Position numbers and translations under genes: made by a program
Shown: piece after piece, positions 45,061 through 58,048 of the stretch
Numbering within the stretch: the stretch's first letter is position 1
How the letters are laid out: each line of letters begins with the position of its first letter
Assembly (NCBI RefSeq): GCF_013401515.1
Contig: NZ_CP058529.1
Location: forward strand, 1,302,001 to 1,366,000
Direction: 5' to 3'
DNA length: 64,000 bases
Origin: Halorarum halophilum
Lineage (GTDB): Archaea; Halobacteriota; Halobacteria; Halobacteriales; Haloferacaceae
The notes under the pieces: model-generated
What the model saw: only the letters and a program-made list of their open reading frames with translations
The model's database searches: none
Told to the model about the DNA's origin: nothing

Positions 45061-46242
45061 CTACTCCGCGCTGCCTACTTCCTCGATGGGGGCTTCCTGA
45101 TCCCCTGACGCCGTGGATTTCTCCGTCCCGTGGGTGAGCGCTTGCTCGGTCTCGATGTCGAAGAGGTGGATGTTCTCCTCGTCGAAGGTGAACTCGAAGG
45201 TCGTGTCGAGGGCGGGTTCGATCGTCGACGGCGTCCGCACGCGGCACTCCTTGCCGTCCATGTCGAGGTAGATGAAGTTGTCCGAGCCGACGACCTCGAC
45301 GACGTCGACGCGGGCGCTGAGGGTCTTGCCCTCTGGGGTCGTCGCGTCCGCAGGGCTCATGCTCTCGGGGCGGATTCCCATGATCATCCGATCGCTCCTT
45401 CGGTCCTGGACGTTGTTCACGATGCGCTCGGACACCTCGTAGGTGAAGCTCTCGTTGCCCAGCCGTCCGCCGCCGTCGGCGTCGGTCTCCAGTTCGACCT
45501 CGAAGAAGTTCATGCTGGGCGATCCGATGAAGTCGGCGACGAAGTAGTTCACCGGTTCGTAGTAGACCTCCTTCGGCGTGGCCATCTGCTGGAGTCGGCC
45601 GTCGTTGAGCACGACGATGCGGTCGGCCATCGTCATCGCCTCCTCCTGGTCGTGGGTCACGTACATCGTCGTGATGCCCAGTTCCGTGTGGAGGCGGGCC
45701 AGTTCGGTCCGCATGTGCTTGCGGAGCTTCGCGTCGAGGTTCGACAGCGGCTCGTCGAACAGGAACACCGCGGGCTCGCGGACGATGGCGCGACCTGTGG
45801 CGACACGCTGCTGTTGGCCGCCCGAGAGCGAGCCGGGTTTCTTGTCCAGGAGGTCCTCGATTCCCATCATCGACGCGGCCTCCTCGACCCGTTTGTCGAT
45901 CTCTTCATCCGTGAGGTCGGTCGAGAGCCGGAGGCCGTACGCCATGTTCCCCCTGACCGTCTTGTGGGGGTAGAGCGCGTAGCTCTGGAAGACCATGGCG
46001 ATATCGCGGTCCTTGGGCGGTTTGTCGTTGATGACCTCGTCGCCGATGCGGATCTCGCCCTCAGTGGCGGTCTCGAGGCCGGCGACCGTCCGTAACGTCG
46101 TCGACTTGCCACAGCCCGAGGGGCCGACGACGACGACGAACTCGCCGTCTTTGATGTCCAGGTCAAGCTCTTCGACCGCGACGATGGGACCGGAATCCGC
46201 ATCGAATACTTTCGTGAGGTTATCTATCTGTAATCGTGCCAT
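45061..46242 (-). CDS. sugar ABC importer ATPase (MalK/UgpC type)
   Basis: The 393-residue ATPase has Walker A GPSGCGKS (40-47), the Q-loop Gln86, signature LSGGQQ (139-144), Walker B VFLFDEP (159-165) and H-loop His197 (VTHD). A C-terminal TOBE/OB regulatory domain follows from about residue 235, as in MalK-type CUT1 importers. The last 30 residues are an acidic tail. It energises uptake by the permeases encoded directly upstream on the same strand. A 135-base gap precedes it, with an AAATAAC element about 31-40 bases before the start, so it may also be transcribed separately and serve several importers. Confidence 0.92.
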   Translation of the reverse strand: MARLQIDNLTKVFDADSGPIVAVEELDLDIKDGEFVVVVGPSGCGKSTTLRTVAGLETATEGEIRIGDEVINDKPPKDRDIAMVFQSYALYPHKTVRGNMAYGLRLSTDLTDEEIDKRVEEAASMMGIEDLLDKKPGSLSGGQQQRVATGRAIVREPAVFLFDEPLSNLDAKLRKHMRTELARLHTELGITTMYVTHDQEEAMTMADRIVVLNDGRLQQMATPKEVYYEPVNYFVADFIGSPSMNFFEVELETDADGGGRLGNESFTYEVSERIVNNVQDRRSDRMIMGIRPESMSPADATTPEGKTLSARVDVVEVVGSDNFIYLDMDGKECRVRTPSTIEPALDTTFEFTFDEENIHLFDIETEQALTHGTEKSTASGDQEAPIEEVGSAE

Positions 46243-48304: not shown

Positions 48305-49861
48305 TTACTGGTTGCGCTCCTGCAGTGTGGTGTCGACCTTCTGGCGGATCTGCTGGGGCAGGTTTTCGACCGGGACCTGGCCCGCGATGGACTGGCTCAT
48401 CGTCTCGTTGATGTCCGTCCAGCGGATCTGATCGGTGCCCCAGACGTCCCAGGGGGCGCCCGTGTTGTTGTACTGCGTGCCGTACTCCTCGAGGTTGGAC
48501 AGGACCTTCTTGAAGTTCTGCGGCAGGTCGGGGTACTCCTCGAGCAGCTTCTGCTGCATCGGCGAGTCCGCCGGGATCGCGGGGTATTTTTCCCCGTAGA
48601 GCGTGAGGACGTGCTGGTCGTCCTGGTGCAGGAAGGTGTTGAGCTCCCAGGCGGCGTCCATCTTCGCCTGGTCGCCGACGTCGAAGATGGAGTGTGCCTG
48701 TTCAAGCGCCCATACGTGGCCGCCGTGCTGGCCCTCGAACCCTTCCAGTTCGCTGATGCCTATTTTCGAGCCGTACTCGGCGTCGAGTCTGGGGTTGGGA
48801 AGCAGCATCACGTCGCCGTTCCCGCCGTTCCAGCCGAAGGTGGCGTCCTTTTTCACCTGCTTCCAGCGGGTGAAGTTCTGGGTCATGTAGGTGAACGACC
48901 CGACGCGGTCGGTCAGCATCAGCGACGGAATCTCCTCGTCGCCGCGGCTGGCCGACTCGCTGCTGGAGAACTCGTGGGCCAGCGTGACCGTGTTCTTGAT
49001 CATCCCGTCGGTCCGCTTGCCGTCGTCGCCGTCCGAGTTGATGATGACGTCGGGGTCGGTCGGGTCGCCGCGGATCCACGGGTCCGTCCCTTCGGTGTAC
49101 GCCGTACGAGCCTGTCCCCAGTAGGATTCGAGGTCGGGCCCGACGCCGGTCTCCTCGTAGGCGTTCGCGTCCGGGAACTCCTCCTGCACCATCTGGAGCG
49201 CCTCGTAGAACCCGCTCCACGTCTCGAGCTGGTCGGGCCCCGAGACGCCGGCCTGGCTGAACATCTTCGGCCGGATGCCGAGGGAGCTCACGCTGTGGCG
49301 GAGCGGCCCGCCGCTCCACCAGTTCCCGCGGAAGTTCGCCGTCGCCTCCGACGCGACGCTCCAGCGGTCCGGGTAGTCGCTCCCCTCGACCCACTGATCG
49401 TGGTCGGGCACGGTTCCGTCGTTCCAGAACTCGATCCCCGCGCCGCCGGACTCCGCCAGCGCCGGCGGGTTGCCCGCCGAGACGGTCGAGGAGATCTTCT
49501 GTCTGACGTCGGAGTACGAGGCCGTCTGCAGCGAGGCGTTGTTGCCGGTCTGTTCGTTGAAGCGTTTTACCGATTCCGTGAAGTGAGGCTTCGTCAGCGA
49601 GTTTTCGGCGGCTTCGGCCGAGAGATACTGGAAACTGGCACCCTCGGAACCGCCGCCGTTCCCGCCCCCGTTTCCGCCGCCGTTCCCGCCCCCGTTTCCG
49701 CCCCCGTTTCCGTCGCCGTTCCCGCCCCCGTTTCCGCCGCCGGCACAGCCGGCGAGCGCCCCGAGCGCGCCGGTCGCCCCCGCAGCACTGGTAACTTTCA
49801 GGAAGTTACGTCGAGAGGAATCCGGCGGTTCTTCGGCAGCCATTGTGTCATGTTTTGACAT
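48305..49861 (-). CDS. sugar ABC importer substrate-binding lipoprotein
   Basis: The 518-residue binding protein has a Tat signal (SRRNFLK, 16-22) followed by a lipobox LAGC (Cys39), so it is exported folded and lipid-anchored on the outer face of the membrane. Residues 41-72 form a Gly/Asn-rich repetitive linker. The rest is a type 1 (MalE-like) solute-binding domain: SAGNPPALAESGG, GIRPKMFSQAG and ALEQAHSIF. At about 518 residues it is large for the family, which may indicate an oligosaccharide or a bulky uronate. ATG at 49861 is supported by a CATATA element about 21-26 bases upstream. A 119-base gap with its own promoter separates it from the permeases. Confidence 0.9.
   Translation of the reverse strand: MSKHDTMAAEEPPDSSRRNFLKVTSAAGATGALGALAGCAGGGNGGGNGDGNGGGNGGGNGGGNGGGNGGGSEGASFQYLSAEAAENSLTKPHFTESVKRFNEQTGNNASLQTASYSDVRQKISSTVSAGNPPALAESGGAGIEFWNDGTVPDHDQWVEGSDYPDRWSVASEATANFRGNWWSGGPLRHSVSSLGIRPKMFSQAGVSGPDQLETWSGFYEALQMVQEEFPDANAYEETGVGPDLESYWGQARTAYTEGTDPWIRGDPTDPDVIINSDGDDGKRTDGMIKNTVTLAHEFSSSESASRGDEEIPSLMLTDRVGSFTYMTQNFTRWKQVKKDATFGWNGGNGDVMLLPNPRLDAEYGSKIGISELEGFEGQHGGHVWALEQAHSIFDVGDQAKMDAAWELNTFLHQDDQHVLTLYGEKYPAIPADSPMQQKLLEEYPDLPQNFKKVLSNLEEYGTQYNNTGAPWDVWGTDQIRWTDINETMSQSIAGQVPVENLPQQIRQKVDTTLQERNQ
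49646..49741 (-). repeat. Gly/Asn codon repeat in the binding-protein linker
   Basis: About 96 bases consist of a repeated 12-base unit coding for Gly-Gly-Gly-Asn (GGGN or GNGG), with one Asp variant at residue 50. It encodes the spacer between lipid anchor and binding domain. Tandem repeats of this sort change copy number easily, so linker length may vary between strains. Confidence 0.75.
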
Positions 49862-50231: not shown

Positions 50232-51497
50232 TCAGAGGAACGACGTCGACCCCTCGACGAGGTGATCCTCGACGACGTCGGCATCGAGCTCGACGCCGAG
50301 GCCCGACCCCTCGGGCAGGTCGATATAGCCGTCGCCGATGATGGGGTCGTCGGGGGCATCGGTCCTGTCCACCAACTCGCCCCACCACGGGACGTCACGC
50401 GCATGCCACTCGAGCGAGAGGAAGTTCGGGATAGCGGCACAAACGTGGGCGCCCGCGACCGTGCCGACAGGACTGGAGATGTTGTGCGGCGACAGCGGGA
50501 TACCGTTGAGGTCACAGACGGTCGCGATCTTCCGGAGTTCCCACAGCCCGCCGCACTTGTTGACGTCGGGCGCCGCGATGTCCATCGCGCCGGCCCCCGC
50601 GTAATCGTTGAACGCGTCGGCGGTTACGAGGTTCTCGCCCGTCAGGATCGGGAGGTGCAGTTCCTCGGCGAGCCTGGCGTGCGCCTCCAGTTGCTCCGGC
50701 GGGACGGGGTCTTCGAGCCACGCCAGGTCGTACGGTTCGAGTTTCCGCCCGATGCGACGGGCCGTCTCGACGGTGAAGTTCCAGTGGAGGTCCATCCCAA
50801 GGTCGACGTCGTACCCGATCTCGTCGCGGACCGCCTCCACGAGCGACACCTTGTGTTCGATCGCCTCGTTGTCGAGACGGCGCGCCGCCGTGTCGACGTC
50901 CCGGTGCGTGGGCACGTCGAGGTCGAATTTCAGCGCCTCAAACCCCTCGTCGACTACCTCGCGGGCCGCCTGCGCGTACGACTCGGGTGTGTAGACGTCC
51001 ATCGGGTCGCGCGAGGCGGCCTGCCCCAGCGATTCGCCGCCGTGGGTGTCACAGTAGATTCGTATCTCGTCGCGGTACTTCCCGCCGAGCAGTTCGTAGA
51101 CGGGGACGTCGAGGACCTTTCCCTTGATGTCCCACAGCGCCGTCTCGATGCCGGTGAACGCCGCCTGCCCGATGCGCCCGCTGCCGGTGTAGCGCTGGTT
51201 CATCAGTTCGAGTAGGCGGTCGATGTCGAGCGGGTTCTCCCCCGCAAGGTCGACGATGAGCCGCTCGGCCATATCGAGCGCCGCCTCGGCCCGGAACGTC
51301 TCGCCGATGCCGTAGTGTTCGGTGTTCGTCTCGACCTTGACCAGTCCCCACGTGAAGTTCCCCGCGACCGCCATTGTCTCGATGCCCGTGATCTCGATAT
51401 CGCGCTCTGGCGGCCGGTGGCGTTCCTCGACGCTCAGGTCGCGCCACGGAACGCCGCCACCCGGCGGAATCCGGTAGTCCGCTTCGTCTCCAGTCAT
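50232..51497 (-). CDS. enolase superfamily dehydratase, gluconate/xylonate dehydratase-like (K-x-D type)
   Basis: A 421-residue relative of the genes at 22837 and 38566. The N-terminal PPERDIEITGIE is at 29-40. Active-site residues are Lys190-F-Asp192, Asp236 and His238 (MDLHWNF), Glu262 (LEDPVPPEQ), Glu288 (TGEN) and His338 (SPHNISSP). It shares YTPESYA and SPHNISSPVGT blocks with the 22837 protein more than with the 38566 one. ATG at 51497 was chosen over one seven codons upstream because a TTAATG element then falls at about 29 bases. It is 84 bases downstream of a DapA-type aldolase gene on the same strand. Confidence 0.84.
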   Translation of the reverse strand: MTGDEADYRIPPGGGVPWRDLSVEERHRPPERDIEITGIETMAVAGNFTWGLVKVETNTEHYGIGETFRAEAALDMAERLIVDLAGENPLDIDRLLELMNQRYTGSGRIGQAAFTGIETALWDIKGKVLDVPVYELLGGKYRDEIRIYCDTHGGESLGQAASRDPMDVYTPESYAQAAREVVDEGFEALKFDLDVPTHRDVDTAARRLDNEAIEHKVSLVEAVRDEIGYDVDLGMDLHWNFTVETARRIGRKLEPYDLAWLEDPVPPEQLEAHARLAEELHLPILTGENLVTADAFNDYAGAGAMDIAAPDVNKCGGLWELRKIATVCDLNGIPLSPHNISSPVGTVAGAHVCAAIPNFLSLEWHARDVPWWGELVDRTDAPDDPIIGDGYIDLPEGSGLGVELDADVVEDHLVEGSTSFL

Positions 51498-51580
51498 AGC
51501 TCGGTGGGTAAACCGCACCGGCTCACATTAAGTTGCAGGGGTGGTCAGTCAGCGGGTCGCGTCCGGCCGCCCTGCGACGG

Positions 51581-52477
51581 TCATCGGGTCGCGTCCAGCC
51601 GAGTAGCGACGGCGTCGTACGCGTCCGCGAGGCGCCGTTCCTCCGCGGGGGACAGTTCCGGCAGCGGCAACAGCGGCGGGCCGACCTCCGTGCCGCTATG
51701 GCGGACGAGGAACTTCAGCGCCATCGCCGTCGGGATGCCGTCGTGGGCAGCGCTGATGGGTATGACGACATCCTTGAGGAGTCGGGTTACCCGCTCCCCC
51801 TCGCCGGCGACGTGGGCGTCGTACAGGTCGGCCATCGCCCCCGGGAAGACGTTCGCCGTCCCCGTGACGATGCCGTCCGAACCTGCGTCGAGCGACGCCG
51901 TCGCGAGCGTCGTGATTCCCTGGATGACCGAGAAGTCCTCGGGCGTGTTCTCGATGAGCCTGAAGTGGTAGGTCGCTCCCCCACAGGAGTCCTTGATGCC
52001 GACGATGTCGTCGTGGCCGGAGAGCGCAGCAACCGTCTCGACGTCGAGGGAGACGCCCGTCAACTGCGGGATGTTGTACAGCACCACCGGAAGGGGCGAG
52101 CGGGTCGCCACGGTCTCGTAGAACTCCCGCAGTCCCGACTGCCGGGTCGAGAGGTAGTAGGGCGTCACCACGACGGCGGCGTCAGCGCCCGCGGCCTCTG
52201 CGTCGTCGATGCCGGCCAGCACGTCGCCCACGCTCGTCCCGCCGCAGCCGGCGATGATAGGCGTCCCGTCCGCGGCGTCGACCACCGTCTCGACGACCGT
52301 CCGGCGCTCCGCGCGCGTGAGGCTGGAGAACTCGCCGTTCGAGCCGTTCGGGAACAGCGCGTGGACGCCGCCGTCGACGAGCGACTCGGTGAACGACCGG
52401 AGCGTGGGGGCGTCGACGCCGCCGTCGCGACCGAGCGTCGGCGTCACCATCGGCGGAATCGTGCCGGAGATTCGCAT
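51581..52477 (-). CDS. DapA/NAL-family 2-keto-3-deoxy acid aldolase
   Basis: The 298-residue protein has the classical set: carboxylate-binding GSNGEF (45-50), Tyr134 in LYNIPQ and Schiff-base Lys162 in GIKDS. This YNIP/IKDS pattern is typical of archaeal 2-keto-3-deoxygluconate/galactonate (or xylonate/arabinonate) aldolases and of dihydrodipicolinate synthase. Dehydratase genes flank it on both sides (DgoD at 52520 upstream, a gluconate/xylonate-like one downstream), which argues for cleaving their 2-keto-3-deoxy products to pyruvate and glyceraldehyde. A CTTTTGACG stretch lies about 27 bases before the start. Confidence 0.85.
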   Translation of the reverse strand: MRISGTIPPMVTPTLGRDGGVDAPTLRSFTESLVDGGVHALFPNGSNGEFSSLTRAERRTVVETVVDAADGTPIIAGCGGTSVGDVLAGIDDAEAAGADAAVVVTPYYLSTRQSGLREFYETVATRSPLPVVLYNIPQLTGVSLDVETVAALSGHDDIVGIKDSCGGATYHFRLIENTPEDFSVIQGITTLATASLDAGSDGIVTGTANVFPGAMADLYDAHVAGEGERVTRLLKDVVIPISAAHDGIPTAMALKFLVRHSGTEVGPPLLPLPELSPAEERRLADAYDAVATRLDATR

Positions 52478-52519: not shown

Positions 52520-53698
52520 TCACCACTCGGCGAAACTCCCGTCCTCGTGCCGCCAGACGTCGCGGTGGAACGAGAGCGCCTCCCCCCAGTCGACCGTCGC
52601 GGGGTCCTCGGCCGCCCCTCGAACCTTCGATTCGTCGATGGTGACCCCCAGCCCGGGACCGTCCGGGATGTCGACGTAGCCGTCCTCGTACTCGAAGACC
52701 GACGGGTCCTCGAGGTAATCGAGCAGGTCCGCCTCGCGGTTGTAGTGGATGTCGAGGCTCTGTTCCTGGATGACGGCGTTCGGCGTGGCGGCGTCGACCT
52801 GGAGGCAGGAGGCGAGCGCGACCGGGCCGAGCGGGCAGTGGGGCGCCAGCGCGACGTCGTACGCCTCCGCCATCGCCGCGATCTTCCGCACCTCCGTGAT
52901 GCCGCCGGCGTGCGAGAGGTCCGGCTGGACGACGTCGACCGCGCCGGACTCGAAGAGCGGCTTGAAGTCCCAGCGGGTGAACAGCCGCTCGCCGGTCGCG
53001 ATCGGCGAGTCCGTGTGGGCCGCCACCTCCGAGAACGCCTCGAGGTGCTCGGAGAGGACGGGTTCCTCGACGAACATCGGGTCGTGGGGCTCCAGCGCCG
53101 CCGCCAGCTTCTTCGCCATCGGCTTGGCCACCCGTCCGTGGAAGTCAACGGCGACGTCGACGTCCGGCCCGACCACCTCGCGGACCTCGCGGAGGCGAGC
53201 GACCGCCGCCTCGACGGCGGCGGGCGACTCGACGCGGCGGAACTCCTCGGTCGCGTTCATCTTCATGGCGGTGAACCCCTGGTCGACCTTCCGTTCGGCC
53301 GCCTCGCCGACGTCGGCCGGCCTGTCGCCGCCGATCCACTGGTAGACCCGCATCCGGTCGCGGGCTCTCCCTCCGAGTAGTTCGTGGACGGGTGCGCCGT
53401 GGTGCTTGCCCTTGATGTCCCAGAGGGCCTGATCGATGCCGGCGATGGCGCTCATGAGCACGGGGCCGCCCCGGTAGAAGCCGCCGCGGTACATCGTCGT
53501 CCAGTGGTCCTCGATGTGCAGCGGGTCCGCCCCGCGCAGTCGCTGCTCGAAGAGCGCGGCGACGGCCGCCGCGACGGGGGCCGGACCGCCGCCGCCCGTG
53601 ACGTGTTCGCCCCACCCGACGGTGCCGTCCGCGGTCTCGAGGCGGACGAACAGCCACCGTGGCGGGACGGCGAACGTCTCGCAGTCGACGACTTTCAT
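52520..53698 (-). CDS. dgoD: D-galactonate dehydratase
   Basis: The 392-residue protein can be followed along most of E. coli DgoD: PPRWLFVRLET, YRGGPVLMSAIAGIDQALWD, GGDRPADV, QPDLSHAGGITEV, APHCPLGPVAL, LQEQS-like QEQSLDIHYN and the last WRHEDGSFAEW. Active-site residues are Asp185 and His187 (VDFHGR), Glu211, Glu237 and His287. These match E. coli D183, H185, E209, E235 and H285 with a shift of two. DgoD turns D-galactonate into 2-keto-3-deoxygalactonate. Its start codon overlaps the stop of the upstream hydroxyacid dehydrogenase gene (ATGA), and a KDG/KDGal-type aldolase gene follows 42 bases downstream. Together they give a short galactonate pathway. Confidence 0.93.
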   Translation of the reverse strand: MKVVDCETFAVPPRWLFVRLETADGTVGWGEHVTGGGGPAPVAAAVAALFEQRLRGADPLHIEDHWTTMYRGGFYRGGPVLMSAIAGIDQALWDIKGKHHGAPVHELLGGRARDRMRVYQWIGGDRPADVGEAAERKVDQGFTAMKMNATEEFRRVESPAAVEAAVARLREVREVVGPDVDVAVDFHGRVAKPMAKKLAAALEPHDPMFVEEPVLSEHLEAFSEVAAHTDSPIATGERLFTRWDFKPLFESGAVDVVQPDLSHAGGITEVRKIAAMAEAYDVALAPHCPLGPVALASCLQVDAATPNAVIQEQSLDIHYNREADLLDYLEDPSVFEYEDGYVDIPDGPGLGVTIDESKVRGAAEDPATVDWGEALSFHRDVWRHEDGSFAEW

Positions 53699-54639
53699 GG
53701 GTCGTTCACCGCCGTCTCGGGGCGTTCCCCCGCGAGCGCCTGTCGGATGGCGCGCGCGACGCCCTCCCGGCACTCCCGTTTCGACTCCTCGGAGTACCAC
53801 GCCTGGTGCGGCGTGGCGACGACCCGCGGGTGATCTCGGAGCGGGCTGTCGGGCGCGGTGGGTTCCTCCTCGAAGACGTCGAGGCCCGCGCCGGCGATCT
53901 CGCCGGCGTCGAGCGCCTCGACGAGCGCCGTCTCGTCGACGATGGGGCCGCGCGCGACGTTCACCAGGGATGCCGTCTCCTTCATCCGCGCGAGGACGTC
54001 GGCGTCGATTAGCCCTTCCGTCTCGGGCGTGAGCGGCGAGTGGACCGAGAGATAGTCGGCCCGTTCGACGGCCTCCTCGAACGGGACGAGTTCGGCGTCG
54101 TGGCCGGCGAGGTCCTCGGGTTCGAGGTACGGGTCGGCCGCCAGCACCGTCGCCCCCAGCGCCGAGGCCCGGTCGCCGACGCCGCGGCCGAGTTTCCCGA
54201 ACCCGACGACACTCACCGTCTCCTCGGAGAAGCGGTGGATCTCCGCGGCCCGGTCGGTCTTCCACTCCCCGGCGGCGATCCCGGCGTCGTACTGCTTGAG
54301 CTGGCGGTCGAGCGCCAGAATCAGGGCAACGGCGTGGGTCGGGACCTCCTCCAGACAGTAGTCGGGAACGTTGGCGACGTAGATGTCCCGCTCGGTGGCA
54401 GCCTCGACGTCGATGTTGTCGACGCCGATGCCGTATCGCGCGATGACGCGGCAGCCGTCGAGTTCGGCGACGTCAGCGGCGGAGACGACGTCGACGTGGT
54501 TGATGAGGGCGTCCGCGTCGGCGAGCGAGACGCCGTCCTCCCTGAGCAACCGAATCTCGGCGATGTCGCCGAGGATCTCGCGCTCCACCCCGAACTCCCC
54601 GTAGTTCTGGTCGGTGGCGACCACGGTATAATTAGGCAT
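53695..54639 (-). CDS. D-2-hydroxyacid dehydrogenase (CtBP-like subgroup)
   Basis: A 314-residue NAD-dependent dehydrogenase. GFGKLG is at 146-151, catalytic Arg230 (VNVARGP), Glu259 (EEEPTAPD) and His278 (TPHQAWYS). ARYGIGVDNIDVEAAT (67-82) and VPDYCLEEVPTHA resemble the C-terminal-binding-protein/phosphoglycerate dehydrogenase-like subgroup. It is the first gene of an operon with dgoD (four-base overlap) and probably the DapA-type aldolase. A GTTATG element lies 29-36 bases before the start. It may act on hydroxypyruvate, glycerate or another product of galactonate breakdown. Confidence 0.83.
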   Translation of the reverse strand: MPNYTVVATDQNYGEFGVEREILGDIAEIRLLREDGVSLADADALINHVDVVSAADVAELDGCRVIARYGIGVDNIDVEAATERDIYVANVPDYCLEEVPTHAVALILALDRQLKQYDAGIAAGEWKTDRAAEIHRFSEETVSVVGFGKLGRGVGDRASALGATVLAADPYLEPEDLAGHDAELVPFEEAVERADYLSVHSPLTPETEGLIDADVLARMKETASLVNVARGPIVDETALVEALDAGEIAGAGLDVFEEEPTAPDSPLRDHPRVVATPHQAWYSEESKRECREGVARAIRQALAGERPETAVNDP

Positions 54640-54718
54640 GCTATGGATACGCAGGCACGCGGCGACGGCATAACGTTACGGGTGCCCGCGGTTCGATGGT
54701 TCCGCGGTTCAACACATC

Positions 54719-54723
54719 TATAA
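54719..54723 (+). promoter_or_regulatory. TATA element of the first chaperonin-like gene
   Basis: TATAA lies 25-29 bases before the ATG at 54748, choosing that codon over the ATG at 54730. Confidence 0.55.
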
Positions 54724-54747
54724 CACCGTATGCGCCATGGAACAGGC

Positions 54748-56319
54748 ATGGCCGAGAACGCGCGTGCCGACCTCACTGCCGACGCCCGCACCGTCTGTGA
54801 CCTCGTCCGGACGACGGTCGGGCCGTTCGGCGCCAACAAACTCGTACTCGGCACGAACGGGACGGCGAAGACGACGGCGTCGGGGTCGCTCGTTCTCGAC
54901 TCGCTCGAACTCGACAACCCGGCGGTGAACCTGTTGAAGGGCGCGGCGAGCGACTTCAGGGACGCCCACGGCGATGGGGCGAGTTCCGTCGTCGCGCTCA
55001 CGGGGGCGCTCCTGACCGAGGCCGACCGCCTCGCGGAACTGGGACTCCACCCGACGACGATAGAACGGGGGTACCGCGAGGCGCTCGGCGTCGCGGTCGA
55101 CCGATTGGAGCAGAGCGCCCGCCCCCTCGACGAGGTGGGCGTCGACGCCGTCGCGCGCACGGCGCTCACGGCGACGCGAAACCCGAACACGCGCGCGCAA
55201 GTGGGCGAGTACGTGGCGCGCATCGCCGAGAGCCTCGCCGACGACGACAGCTTCGACGCCGATCGAGTGAAGGTCCTGTCGCAGCTTGGCGGGGGCGAGT
55301 CGGAGACGGAACTCGTCGAGGGCGTCGTCCTCGACCGAGACCCCGTGACCGACGACATGCCGCGGACGCTCGAGGACGCCGGCGTGGCGGTGCTCTCGGC
55401 GACGGTCGACGTGCCGAAGCTCGGCGGCAGTACCGGCAGGCTGGACGCCAGGCTCTCGATCAGCCCCGAGCGCTTCGAGGACCGGGCCGCGATTGGCGAC
55501 GGCGAGCGCGAGCGCTTCCGCGAGCACCTCGACGCCGCCGTCGACGCCGGCTGCCGCGTCGTCGTGACGGGCATGGCCATCAACGAGCGCGTCGAGCGGA
55601 TGCTGGCGAACGCCGGCGTCCTCGCCCTCCAGCGCGTCGACGACGAGGACCTGCCGCGCGTCGCCCGTGCCACGGGCGCAACGGTCGTCCCGGGGCTCGA
55701 ACAGGTGACCCCGGAGACGTGCGGGCGCGCGACCGTCCGCGTCACCCGGTGGGCCGGCCGCGACGTGACGTCCTTCGTGTCCGTCGGCGCCGAGCGGGAA
55801 CCGGTCTACACGCTGTTCTGTCGGGCACCCGATTCCCGTTCGGTTGAGGCGTTCGAGCGCTCCGTCGAGAGCGCGCTGGCCGCCGTCGACCACGCCTTCC
55901 GGACCCGCACCGTCGTCCCCGGCGGCGGCGCGGCGGAGACGGGGGCGACGCTCGCGGTCCGCGAACACGCCCGGTCGGTCGCCGGGGCTGAACAGCTCGC
56001 GATCGAGGCGTTCGGCGACGCGATGGCGACCATCCCCCGGGCGCTGGCGGTCAACGCCGGCATCGACGGCTGGCGCGGCCTCGTTCGCCTCCGGGTCGCC
56101 CACCACGAGGGGCACGACGCGGTCGGCGTCGACTGCCTGTTCGGCGAGACCCGCGACGTCCTCGCCGAGGACCCCATCGCCGAACCGACGGCGCTCAAGC
56201 GCGACGTCTGGTCGGCGGCGACCGACCTCGCGACACACCTCGTCCGCATGGACGCCGAGGTCCCCGCGTCCGACCTGAGCGACGAGGAGACGGCGGACAG
56301 GCTCGGGGAGCGTCCCTGA
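54748..56319 (+). CDS. divergent group II chaperonin-like protein, probably hydrolysis-deficient
   Basis: The 523-residue protein has the three-domain layout of thermosome/CCT subunits: TVGPFGANKLV (24-34), NPAVNLLKGAA, GDGASS (75-80), HPTTIERGYREAL, a mid apical-type region, PGGGAAETGA (391-400) and LAIEAFGDAMATIPRALAVNAGID. Two catalytic aspartates appear lost. The TNDG position reads TASG (Ser45, GroEL D52 equivalent) and the DAL position reads ESAL (Ser375, GroEL D398 equivalent). Asp76 of GDG (GroEL D87) remains. Canonical thermosome subunits are about 540-560 residues and far more conserved, so this is an accessory paralog. It converges on a second chaperonin-like gene seven bases away. 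The two may form one hetero-oligomeric ring; the clients are unknown. Confidence 0.75.
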   Translation: MAENARADLTADARTVCDLVRTTVGPFGANKLVLGTNGTAKTTASGSLVLDSLELDNPAVNLLKGAASDFRDAHGDGASSVVALTGALLTEADRLAELGLHPTTIERGYREALGVAVDRLEQSARPLDEVGVDAVARTALTATRNPNTRAQVGEYVARIAESLADDDSFDADRVKVLSQLGGGESETELVEGVVLDRDPVTDDMPRTLEDAGVAVLSATVDVPKLGGSTGRLDARLSISPERFEDRAAIGDGERERFREHLDAAVDAGCRVVVTGMAINERVERMLANAGVLALQRVDDEDLPRVARATGATVVPGLEQVTPETCGRATVRVTRWAGRDVTSFVSVGAEREPVYTLFCRAPDSRSVEAFERSVESALAAVDHAFRTRTVVPGGGAAETGATLAVREHARSVAGAEQLAIEAFGDAMATIPRALAVNAGIDGWRGLVRLRVAHHEGHDAVGVDCLFGETRDVLAEDPIAEPTALKRDVWSAATDLATHLVRMDAEVPASDLSDEETADRLGERP

Positions 56320-56325
56320 GGACGG

Positions 56326-58017
56326 TCAGTCCCGTTCGGGTTCCGGACGGAACTCCCCCAGGTCGACGCCGGGGTGAATCACCGCGTCGACGGTGAGCAA
56401 CTGCTCGGCGACCGAGTTCGCCGTCTCGACGGCCTGCGAGAACAGCCGACGGGGTTCCACGACGCCGGCCTCCCACGCGTCGAACGATTCGCCGTCGACG
56501 GAGACACCCGCGGATATCGGCCCCTCGTTCGTCGCGTGTTCGGCCCGCAGGGCCGCGAGCAGGTCGAGGCGGTCGGCACCGGCGTTCGCCGCCAGCGCCG
56601 CCGGCACGGATTCGAGCGCGTCGGCGAACGCCTCGATGGCCAGCTGTTCGAGGTCCGAGATGGAGGTGGCGTACCCCCGGAGGTCGGCGGCGACGGCCAT
56701 CGCGGGCGCACCCGCCCCGGGAAGTACCTGACCGTCGGTGGCCGCCGTCGCCGTCACCTCGAGGGCGTCCTCCAGCATCCGCTCGTGTTCGGCGCTGGCC
56801 GTCTCGGTCTCCACGTCGACGATGAGCGTGTACACGGCGCCCTCGCAGTCGTCGAAGAAGGTCCACTTCTCGTCGCCGACGCGGCGCTCGGTTATCGATC
56901 CGACCATCCCGAGTTGGTCCGGCGTCAGCTCCGAGAGGTCGTCGACGACGGTCCCGCCGGACGCCCGCGCCAGCCGGTAGACATCGACGAGCGGGTACTT
57001 CACCTCGTCGACGACCGCGACGCCGCCGGACTCGAACGCCGTCCGCGTCCGGTCGTCGAGCCGCTCCTGGGAGACCAGCACGTCGACGCCCATCCCGTCG
57101 AGGCGGTCGACGAGCGCCGCGACGCGGCGATTCAGCCCCTCGGTGTAGTCGGTCCACTGTTCGAACGACTCAATTTCGACCCCGGGGTCGCTCCCCTGAC
57201 CGAACGGGGTCGCCGTCTTCTCGACGTCGATCTCCTCGTCGACGAGCGCCACCGTCGCGTCGGTCATCGGCTCGAGCATCGACCAGTCGAACTCCCGCAA
57301 CGACTCATCCGACTCGTCGAGCGGCCCCGGGTAGCGGCGGACGACGACGCCGCGGTAGCGACCGCCGGGCGCTTCGGGGCCGGCGAGCACCTTCGCGTCG
57401 TCGGTGTCGATCCAGTCGGTGTCGCCCCACTCGGCGAGCACGCGTATCGTCTCCGCGACGCGAGCGGCGTACGCCTCGCGCGTGGTCGCGTCGAGGTCGC
57501 CGGTCATCGAGGTGGCGGCGACGCGTTCGAGCAGGTCGACGTCCTCCGGGTCGACCTCCCTCGCGAGCGCGTCGAGGACGGCTCCCGCGCGGGCGGCCGC
57601 CATCGAGAAGCCGACGACGACGTTCCCCGGGTGGAGACCCGCCTCGACAAGGTCGACTCCTTCGTCGACCAGGGCCTCCCCGAGGAGGACAGCGGTGGTC
57701 GAGCCGTCGCCGAGTTCGCGCCGCATACCGTCGACGGCGTCGACGAACAGCGCGGCGACGGGGTGGCCGAAGCCGCCGCCGCGCTCAATGGCGTCGAGTA
57801 TCTCGCTGGCGTCGGACGTCAGCACCGTCTCGGGTTCCTCGACGTTGTCGACGGTCTGAACCTGGGTGCTCATGCCGTTCGGGCCGAGCGTCGAGCGGAC
57901 GAGCGACGCGACAGTCCGCGTCGCGGCGGAGACGAATGTCCGCGCCTCCTCGTCCCGCAGGGTCCACGATCCGGCGTCGACGGGGGCGTAGTCGACGTCT
58001 TTGCGTCCACCTTCCAT
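56326..58017 (-). CDS. divergent group II chaperonin-like protein with intact catalytic residues
   Basis: A 563-residue thermosome/CCT-type protein. STLGPNGMSTQV (42-53), LTSDASEIL (66-74), GDGSTTAVLLGEAL (103-116), LHPGNVVVGF, EDALEV (416-421), LPGAGAPAMAV and LAIEAFADALESVPAALAANAGAD follow family order. Asp69, Asp104 and Asp417 occupy the positions of GroEL D52, D87 and D398, so ATP hydrolysis looks possible. The GGGA motif is altered to GAGA. ATG at 58017 is supported by GTTTATG 25-31 bases upstream. Paired tail to tail with a chaperonin-like gene that lacks two of these aspartates, it suggests an active/inactive subunit system. The sequence is too divergent to be the housekeeping thermosome. 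Confidence 0.78.
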   Translation of the reverse strand: MEGGRKDVDYAPVDAGSWTLRDEEARTFVSAATRTVASLVRSTLGPNGMSTQVQTVDNVEEPETVLTSDASEILDAIERGGGFGHPVAALFVDAVDGMRRELGDGSTTAVLLGEALVDEGVDLVEAGLHPGNVVVGFSMAAARAGAVLDALAREVDPEDVDLLERVAATSMTGDLDATTREAYAARVAETIRVLAEWGDTDWIDTDDAKVLAGPEAPGGRYRGVVVRRYPGPLDESDESLREFDWSMLEPMTDATVALVDEEIDVEKTATPFGQGSDPGVEIESFEQWTDYTEGLNRRVAALVDRLDGMGVDVLVSQERLDDRTRTAFESGGVAVVDEVKYPLVDVYRLARASGGTVVDDLSELTPDQLGMVGSITERRVGDEKWTFFDDCEGAVYTLIVDVETETASAEHERMLEDALEVTATAATDGQVLPGAGAPAMAVAADLRGYATSISDLEQLAIEAFADALESVPAALAANAGADRLDLLAALRAEHATNEGPISAGVSVDGESFDAWEAGVVEPRRLFSQAVETANSVAEQLLTVDAVIHPGVDLGEFRPEPERD

Positions 58018-58041: not shown

Positions 58042-58048
58042 CATAAAC
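58042..58048 (-). promoter_or_regulatory. TATA element of the second chaperonin-like gene
   Basis: GTTTATG on the minus strand lies 25-31 bases before the ATG at 58017 and supports that start. It falls between the chaperonin start and the end of the upstream aldolase gene, so the chaperonin can be made independently. Confidence 0.55.

Follow-up and report, generated by a model that had tools for sequence, protein, structure and literature searches.

Two divergent thermosome-like subunits co-inherited with a CUT1-type ABC importer in haloarchaea

The chaperonin-like genes and their locus

The window analysed here is a stretch of 64,000 nucleotides from Halorarum halophilum (contig NZ_CP058529.1, positions 1,302,001 to 1,366,000), and it contains two chaperonin-like genes that we refer to herein as S and L. 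The short subunit, S, is encoded on the plus strand (54748..56319; 523 amino acids) and the long subunit, L, on the minus strand (58017-56326; 563 amino acids). The initial annotation had described two group II chaperonin-like genes with convergent ends, and both open reading frames were recovered in this tail-to-tail arrangement, with 6 bp between their stop codons (56320..56325). In the 16 genomes in which the two genes are adjacent, the corresponding gap ranges from -4 to 139 bp. An in-frame ATG at 54730 would lengthen S to 529 residues and an alternative start at 58044 would lengthen L to 572; a TATA-like box approximately 28 bp 5' of S favours the start at 54748.

Both proteins match PF00118 (Cpn60_TCP1) over its full length, with scores of 346 bits for S and 320 bits for L against a cut-off of 34.3. 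AlphaFold2 models of S and L (mean pLDDT 82.5 and 80.9, respectively) found group II chaperonins as their best Foldseek matches over the whole length (E = 1e-36 and 3e-37), and by secondary structure the lid, or helical-protrusion, segments seem to be present in both models. Neither protein reaches the cut-offs for thermosomes proper (TIGR02339, NF041082 and NF041083; 400-671 bits), S scoring 315-326 bits and L 301-309 bits. L is missing the C-terminal GGM tail, and S is missing about 23 N-terminal residues that are present in ordinary thermosome subunits, where they contribute to inter-subunit contact. Three typical thermosome genes (510-609 bits) sit elsewhere in the same genome.

Upstream of S, a divergent promoter region (54640..54747) separates it from a catabolic and importer operon on the minus strand. 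The first gene of this operon encodes a D-2-hydroxyacid dehydrogenase (53695..54639), and it is followed by an enolase-superfamily (MR/MLE) enzyme (52520..53680, N-terminal boundary approximate), a DHDPS-family aldolase (51581..52477) and another MR/MLE enzyme (50232..51518), all four of which are variable cargo. The operon ends with the importer: a Tat-signal lipoprotein substrate-binding protein (SBP; 48305..49861), permease P1 (47226..48185), permease P2 (46381..47223, lower end approximate) and an ATPase of the MalK/UgpC type (45061..46242). P2 is intact and 73% identical to the copy at locus L057. All 17 SBPs read carry a lipobox after a Tat motif. A search for inverted repeats in the divergent promoter, covering five such regions, returned nothing informative.

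Catalytic residues and relation to known chaperonins

To place the residues matching GroEL D52, D87 and D398, S and L were aligned with solved thermosomes using HMMER, and the blocks flanking each site were ungapped. L in the window carries D69, D104 and D417 at the three sites, and S carries Ser45, D76 and Ser375, so that the residue assignments of the initial annotation hold for both proteins and the alignment places no aspartate at either of the two serine sites. Residues were then counted at 25 loci, 18 from genomes of a 392-genome survey and 7 from further genomes (Halogeometricum pallidum, Haloferax massiliensis, Halegenticoccus soli, two Haloquadratum MAGs, Halosimplex aquaticum and Salinigranum salinum). 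Among the S orthologues, the D52 site is Ser or Ala in every case (Asp in 0/25), the D398 site is Asp in one (genome G102) and the D87-site Asp is invariant (25/25). L orthologues keep Asp at these sites in 24/25, 22/25 and 25/25, respectively, and 21 of the 25 loci, the window included, encode an L with both catalytic aspartates. The exceptions are G152, G166 and G190 (Haladaptatus) and L087 (Halosimplex), each with one catalytic Asp changed to N, S or T; judged from these substitutions, the pair may hydrolyse little or no ATP in those genomes. The proposed pairing of an active with an inactive subunit is therefore upheld for S, which appears incapable of hydrolysis, and is not absolute for L, which is one Asp short in 4/25.

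In both families the TGK motif of thermosomes has lost its lysine, which we take to be K161 of Methanococcus maripaludis Cpn, and the GPxG phosphate loop is present in all 25 S orthologues and in all L orthologues except one. Since dN/dS between close pairs was 0.10-0.32 for S and for L, indicating purifying selection, S is a maintained and apparently non-hydrolysing subunit; these values and the conserved non-catalytic sites rule out a decaying gene. As the phosphate loop and the D87-site Asp are retained, S is expected to bind ATP, and its residues suggest that it would not split it. The matching change in the M. maripaludis chaperonin, D386A, leaves ATP bound and not hydrolysed (PMC5019054).

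The eukaryotic chaperonin-like proteins MKKS, BBS10 and BBS12 have an assembly role. They resemble S and L in fast evolution and in the loss of hydrolysis residues (PMC2846930), and differ in having no operon and no conserved two-subunit pair. On the model of these proteins, S and L would form an ATP-poor assembly or scaffold factor that builds or regulates the membrane importer without enclosing a client, in keeping with the missing catalytic residues of S at every locus and of L at four, and with the absence of the TGK lysine from both. However, L keeps both catalytic aspartates at the large majority of loci and the lid segments seem to be present in both predicted models, and we regard a scaffold of this kind as improbable.

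Compared with the thermosome (CctA/B/C; PF00118, TIGR02339), S and L share the fold, the domain order, the GPxG loop and the Mg-binding GDG aspartate, and L alone shares the two catalytic aspartates. They differ in falling far below the equivalog cut-offs, in features missing from both (the TGK lysine), from L (the GGM tail) or from S (the catalytic aspartates and the N-terminal strand region), and in being tied to one operon partner instead of universal. Eukaryotic CCT/TRiC offers a parallel to the complex predicted for S and L in its paralogous subunits of unequal ATPase competence, CCT6 and CCT8 being low; unlike CCT, the pair comprises two subunits rather than eight, the catalytic residues of S are actually lost, and there is apparently one client. 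Divergent group II subunits in excess of the one to three that archaea usually have are also found as Hsp60-4 and Hsp60-5 of the Methanosarcina acetivorans type. Their probable homologues L141, L144, L145 and L147, which we assume to be Hsp60-4/5, form a separate clade that keeps both catalytic aspartates, and our trees place S and L outside this divergent methanogen clade, rejecting their identity with Hsp60-4/5. A review records five group II chaperonin genes only from M. acetivorans (PMC6420498); the window genome also has five. In the part of the literature that was searched, no description of the S/L pair or of its connection with an importer was found.

Paired evolution of S and L and co-occurrence with the importer

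In trees of 110-116 sequences, the S and L families are each monophyletic (support 1.0) and stand apart from the three housekeeping thermosome genes. When a GroEL-like sequence was included, L was drawn towards it; when it was left out, S and L were weak sisters (support 0.61). Sequence identity is about 30% between S and L, and roughly 35-38% between S and thermosomes. Orthologues of S, and likewise of L, share about 50% identity, versus a median of 82% for housekeeping thermosomes in a set drawn from different genomes, and by this measure S and L are evolving far faster. Across the 18 survey genomes the pairwise distances of S and L correlate strongly (r = 0.94, or 0.96 without the outlier G102), a level that none of 20000 Mantel permutations reached, and the partial correlation remains 0.85-0.91 once transporter distances are removed. 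This correlation and the monophyly of each family fit two subunits of one complex and, together with the paired inheritance described below, support the earlier proposal of a specialised chaperonin built from two paralogous subunits. No S/L orthologues were found outside haloarchaea in a genome scan or a phylum sample. Viral carriage of S was also considered and rejected, no relatives having been found among viral contigs.

The same comparisons bear on the possibility that S and L have no ring of their own and join CctA/B/C as substrate-inducible subunits that shift its specificity. A common fold and similar length would allow this, and CCT rings tolerate single hydrolysis-dead subunits, complexes with one D-to-A subunit being still able to fold (PMC5413064). 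The identities of about 30% between S and L and 35-38% between S and thermosomes, set against 82% among the housekeeping copies, speak against joint assembly with CctA/B/C, as does the strong S-L co-variation expected of mutual contact, and we consider such joining unlikely.

A set of 392 haloarchaeal genomes from 95 genera was searched for S, L, SBP and P1, each independently of the others. All four occur in an identical set of 18 genomes from 13 genera, and neither S nor L was seen without the other; regular occurrence of either gene alone had been named beforehand as an observation that would refute the proposal. The sets are well separated: S orthologues score at least 492 bits versus at most 292 bits for other chaperonins, and SBP scores in the pair-less genomes tested are no higher than 49 bits. 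G104, of the same genus as the window, has none of the four. In the 7 further genomes, which came by a route other than the survey, S, L, SBP, both permeases and the ATPase were complete in every case. In 15/18 genomes S and the importer operon are arranged head-to-head, the SBP gene being the immediate neighbour of S in 12, and in Halomarina BND7 the gene order from importer to pair is that of the window. The six-gene set is kept despite rearrangement in G102, G199, G375 and Halosimplex, and Haladaptatus QDMS2 retains both S and L 32 kb apart. An apparent break in the SBP and permease genes of Haloquadratum J07HQX50 is a scaffold gap of N and not decay. A second SBP copy, 47% identical, was found on another contig of one genome (G099:C122:5623-7143).

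The initial annotation had suggested that the pair serves the enolase-superfamily or tungsten enzymes around it, and a chaperonin that folds the sugar-acid enzymes encoded there, aldolases included, would account for their frequency as neighbours. Within the stretch around the pair, 13/18 genomes have an enolase-type gene, and most of the 18 genomes have an orthologue of an isopropylmalate/tartrate-type dehydrogenase. However, no enzyme family occurs at every locus. Enolase-type and tungsten enzymes differ between loci, the aldehyde ferredoxin oxidoreductase (AOR) family being present in 2/18, and the dehydrogenase is missing in G102 and G375 and occurs in 5/12 pair-less genomes tested. The varying catabolic genes include the enolase superfamily, DHDPS aldolase, hydroxyacid dehydrogenases, tartrate-type dehydrogenase, four-carbon-acid kinase/PdxA, LUD, FGGY kinase and AOR. 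Enzyme neighbours were therefore rejected as the constant partner, and chaperoning of these enzymes seems to us an unlikely role. Since the 18 genomes are identical for the pair and for SBP and P1, the exclusive partner is instead one CUT1-type ABC importer. In several genomes, two neighbour families of predicted open reading frames, family 9 (L065:17834-18919) and family 7 (L058:10015-11361), lie close to the importer; neither gave a convincing Pfam match.

The S/L module is patchy and often lies on large plasmids, and linkage and joint transfer could explain part of its co-occurrence. Carried to its limit, this would mean that the chaperonins are simply carried along on a sugar-acid island that spreads horizontally, and are functionally unlinked to the importer. 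Retention of the same six genes in 13 genera, through rearrangement or separation of up to 32 kb, while the metabolic neighbours vary, argues against mere carriage, as does purifying selection on both S and L, and we hold this explanation to be very improbable.

A possible client-dedicated chaperonin and other operon-linked paralogues

We think it somewhat probable that S and L constitute one client-dedicated, thermosome-like chaperonin that is passed on, and probably also expressed, together with one CUT1-type ABC importer. In the mechanism that we propose, S and L would co-assemble into a mixed double ring, in which L would bind and hydrolyse ATP and so power opening and closing. S, with its phosphate loop and Mg-binding Asp and without the two hydrolysis aspartates, would hold ATP unsplit; it could thereby slow or stagger the cycle, and could supply a specialised client-binding wall. 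A precedent for a chaperonin encoded beside its client is found in MmoG and MimG, which are divergent GroEL-like proteins and which differ from the pair in being group I, bacterial, encoded by a single gene and devoted to a monooxygenase; MmoG is required for the enzyme encoded beside it (PMC7994243). The strict genomic association with one candidate client system that would be expected of an MmoG-like, dedicated chaperonin was observed for S and L across the 18 identical genomes.

The client would most likely be a component of the importer, and the best candidate is the divergent Tat lipoprotein SBP. Haloarchaea export proteins mainly through Tat, which transports them in the folded state (PMC2910488), and the SBP is attractive as a client since it should have to reach its fold in the cytoplasm. 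Such a need for the pair would not be general, as most haloarchaea export Tat SBPs without it. Distances of S correlate with those of SBP at 0.58 (0.85 without G102) and with those of the permease at 0.72 (0.80 without G102). Since the S-SBP correlation is not clearly above the S-permease correlation, these data do not favour the SBP over the permeases or the ATPase as client.

The usual view of group II chaperonins is that they are generalists; the S/L pair suggests one that is devoted to a single client rather than to general housekeeping. With a hydrolysis-dead partner and a single predicted client, the pair would make testable both this generalist view and the puzzle of unequal ATPase subunits in CCT. 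It occurs in Haloferax species close to the genetically tractable Haloferax volcanii. Its strict co-inheritance with the importer suggests that folding may be a bottleneck for binding proteins exported through Tat.

Operon linkage of divergent thermosome paralogues is not confined to S and L. A second family lies beside formamidase (fmdA) in Natrinema, Natribaculum, Halomicrococcus, AArc-T1-2 and genome G020 (loci L160, L162-L169, L152, L153, L155, L156 and L158:9325-10941). Among 10 genomes with the closest relatives of this type, formamidase lies within 1.5 kb in 9; it is beside the paralogue in 0/20 controls, which are less closely related matches and for the most part housekeeping genes. 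Judged from the formamidase-linked paralogues, dedication to a client seems to be a recurring path in chaperonin evolution, and together with ABC-linked paralogues they independently support the notion of client-dedicated haloarchaeal thermosomes. Such thermosomes may have arisen repeatedly, S/L with a built-in hydrolysis-dead subunit for one importer and the formamidase-linked and other ABC-linked paralogues for other clients, a generalisation that we put forward tentatively.

In two formamidase-linked paralogues the D398 site is Gly. On a plasmid of Halorussus vallis, a divergent thermosome subunit (NZ_CP100002.1 57040-58659; L151:7920-9539) lies inside a two-part ABC importer cluster and adjoins an alpha-glucuronidase gene; the S/L carrier G102, which has a matching subunit at nearly the same position, is probably this organism. 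Another divergent subunit, on a plasmid of Haloarcula marina (NZ_CP100405.1 157673-159283; L154:6923-8533), lies in a different sugar ABC importer, between the ATPase gene and the SBP and permease genes.
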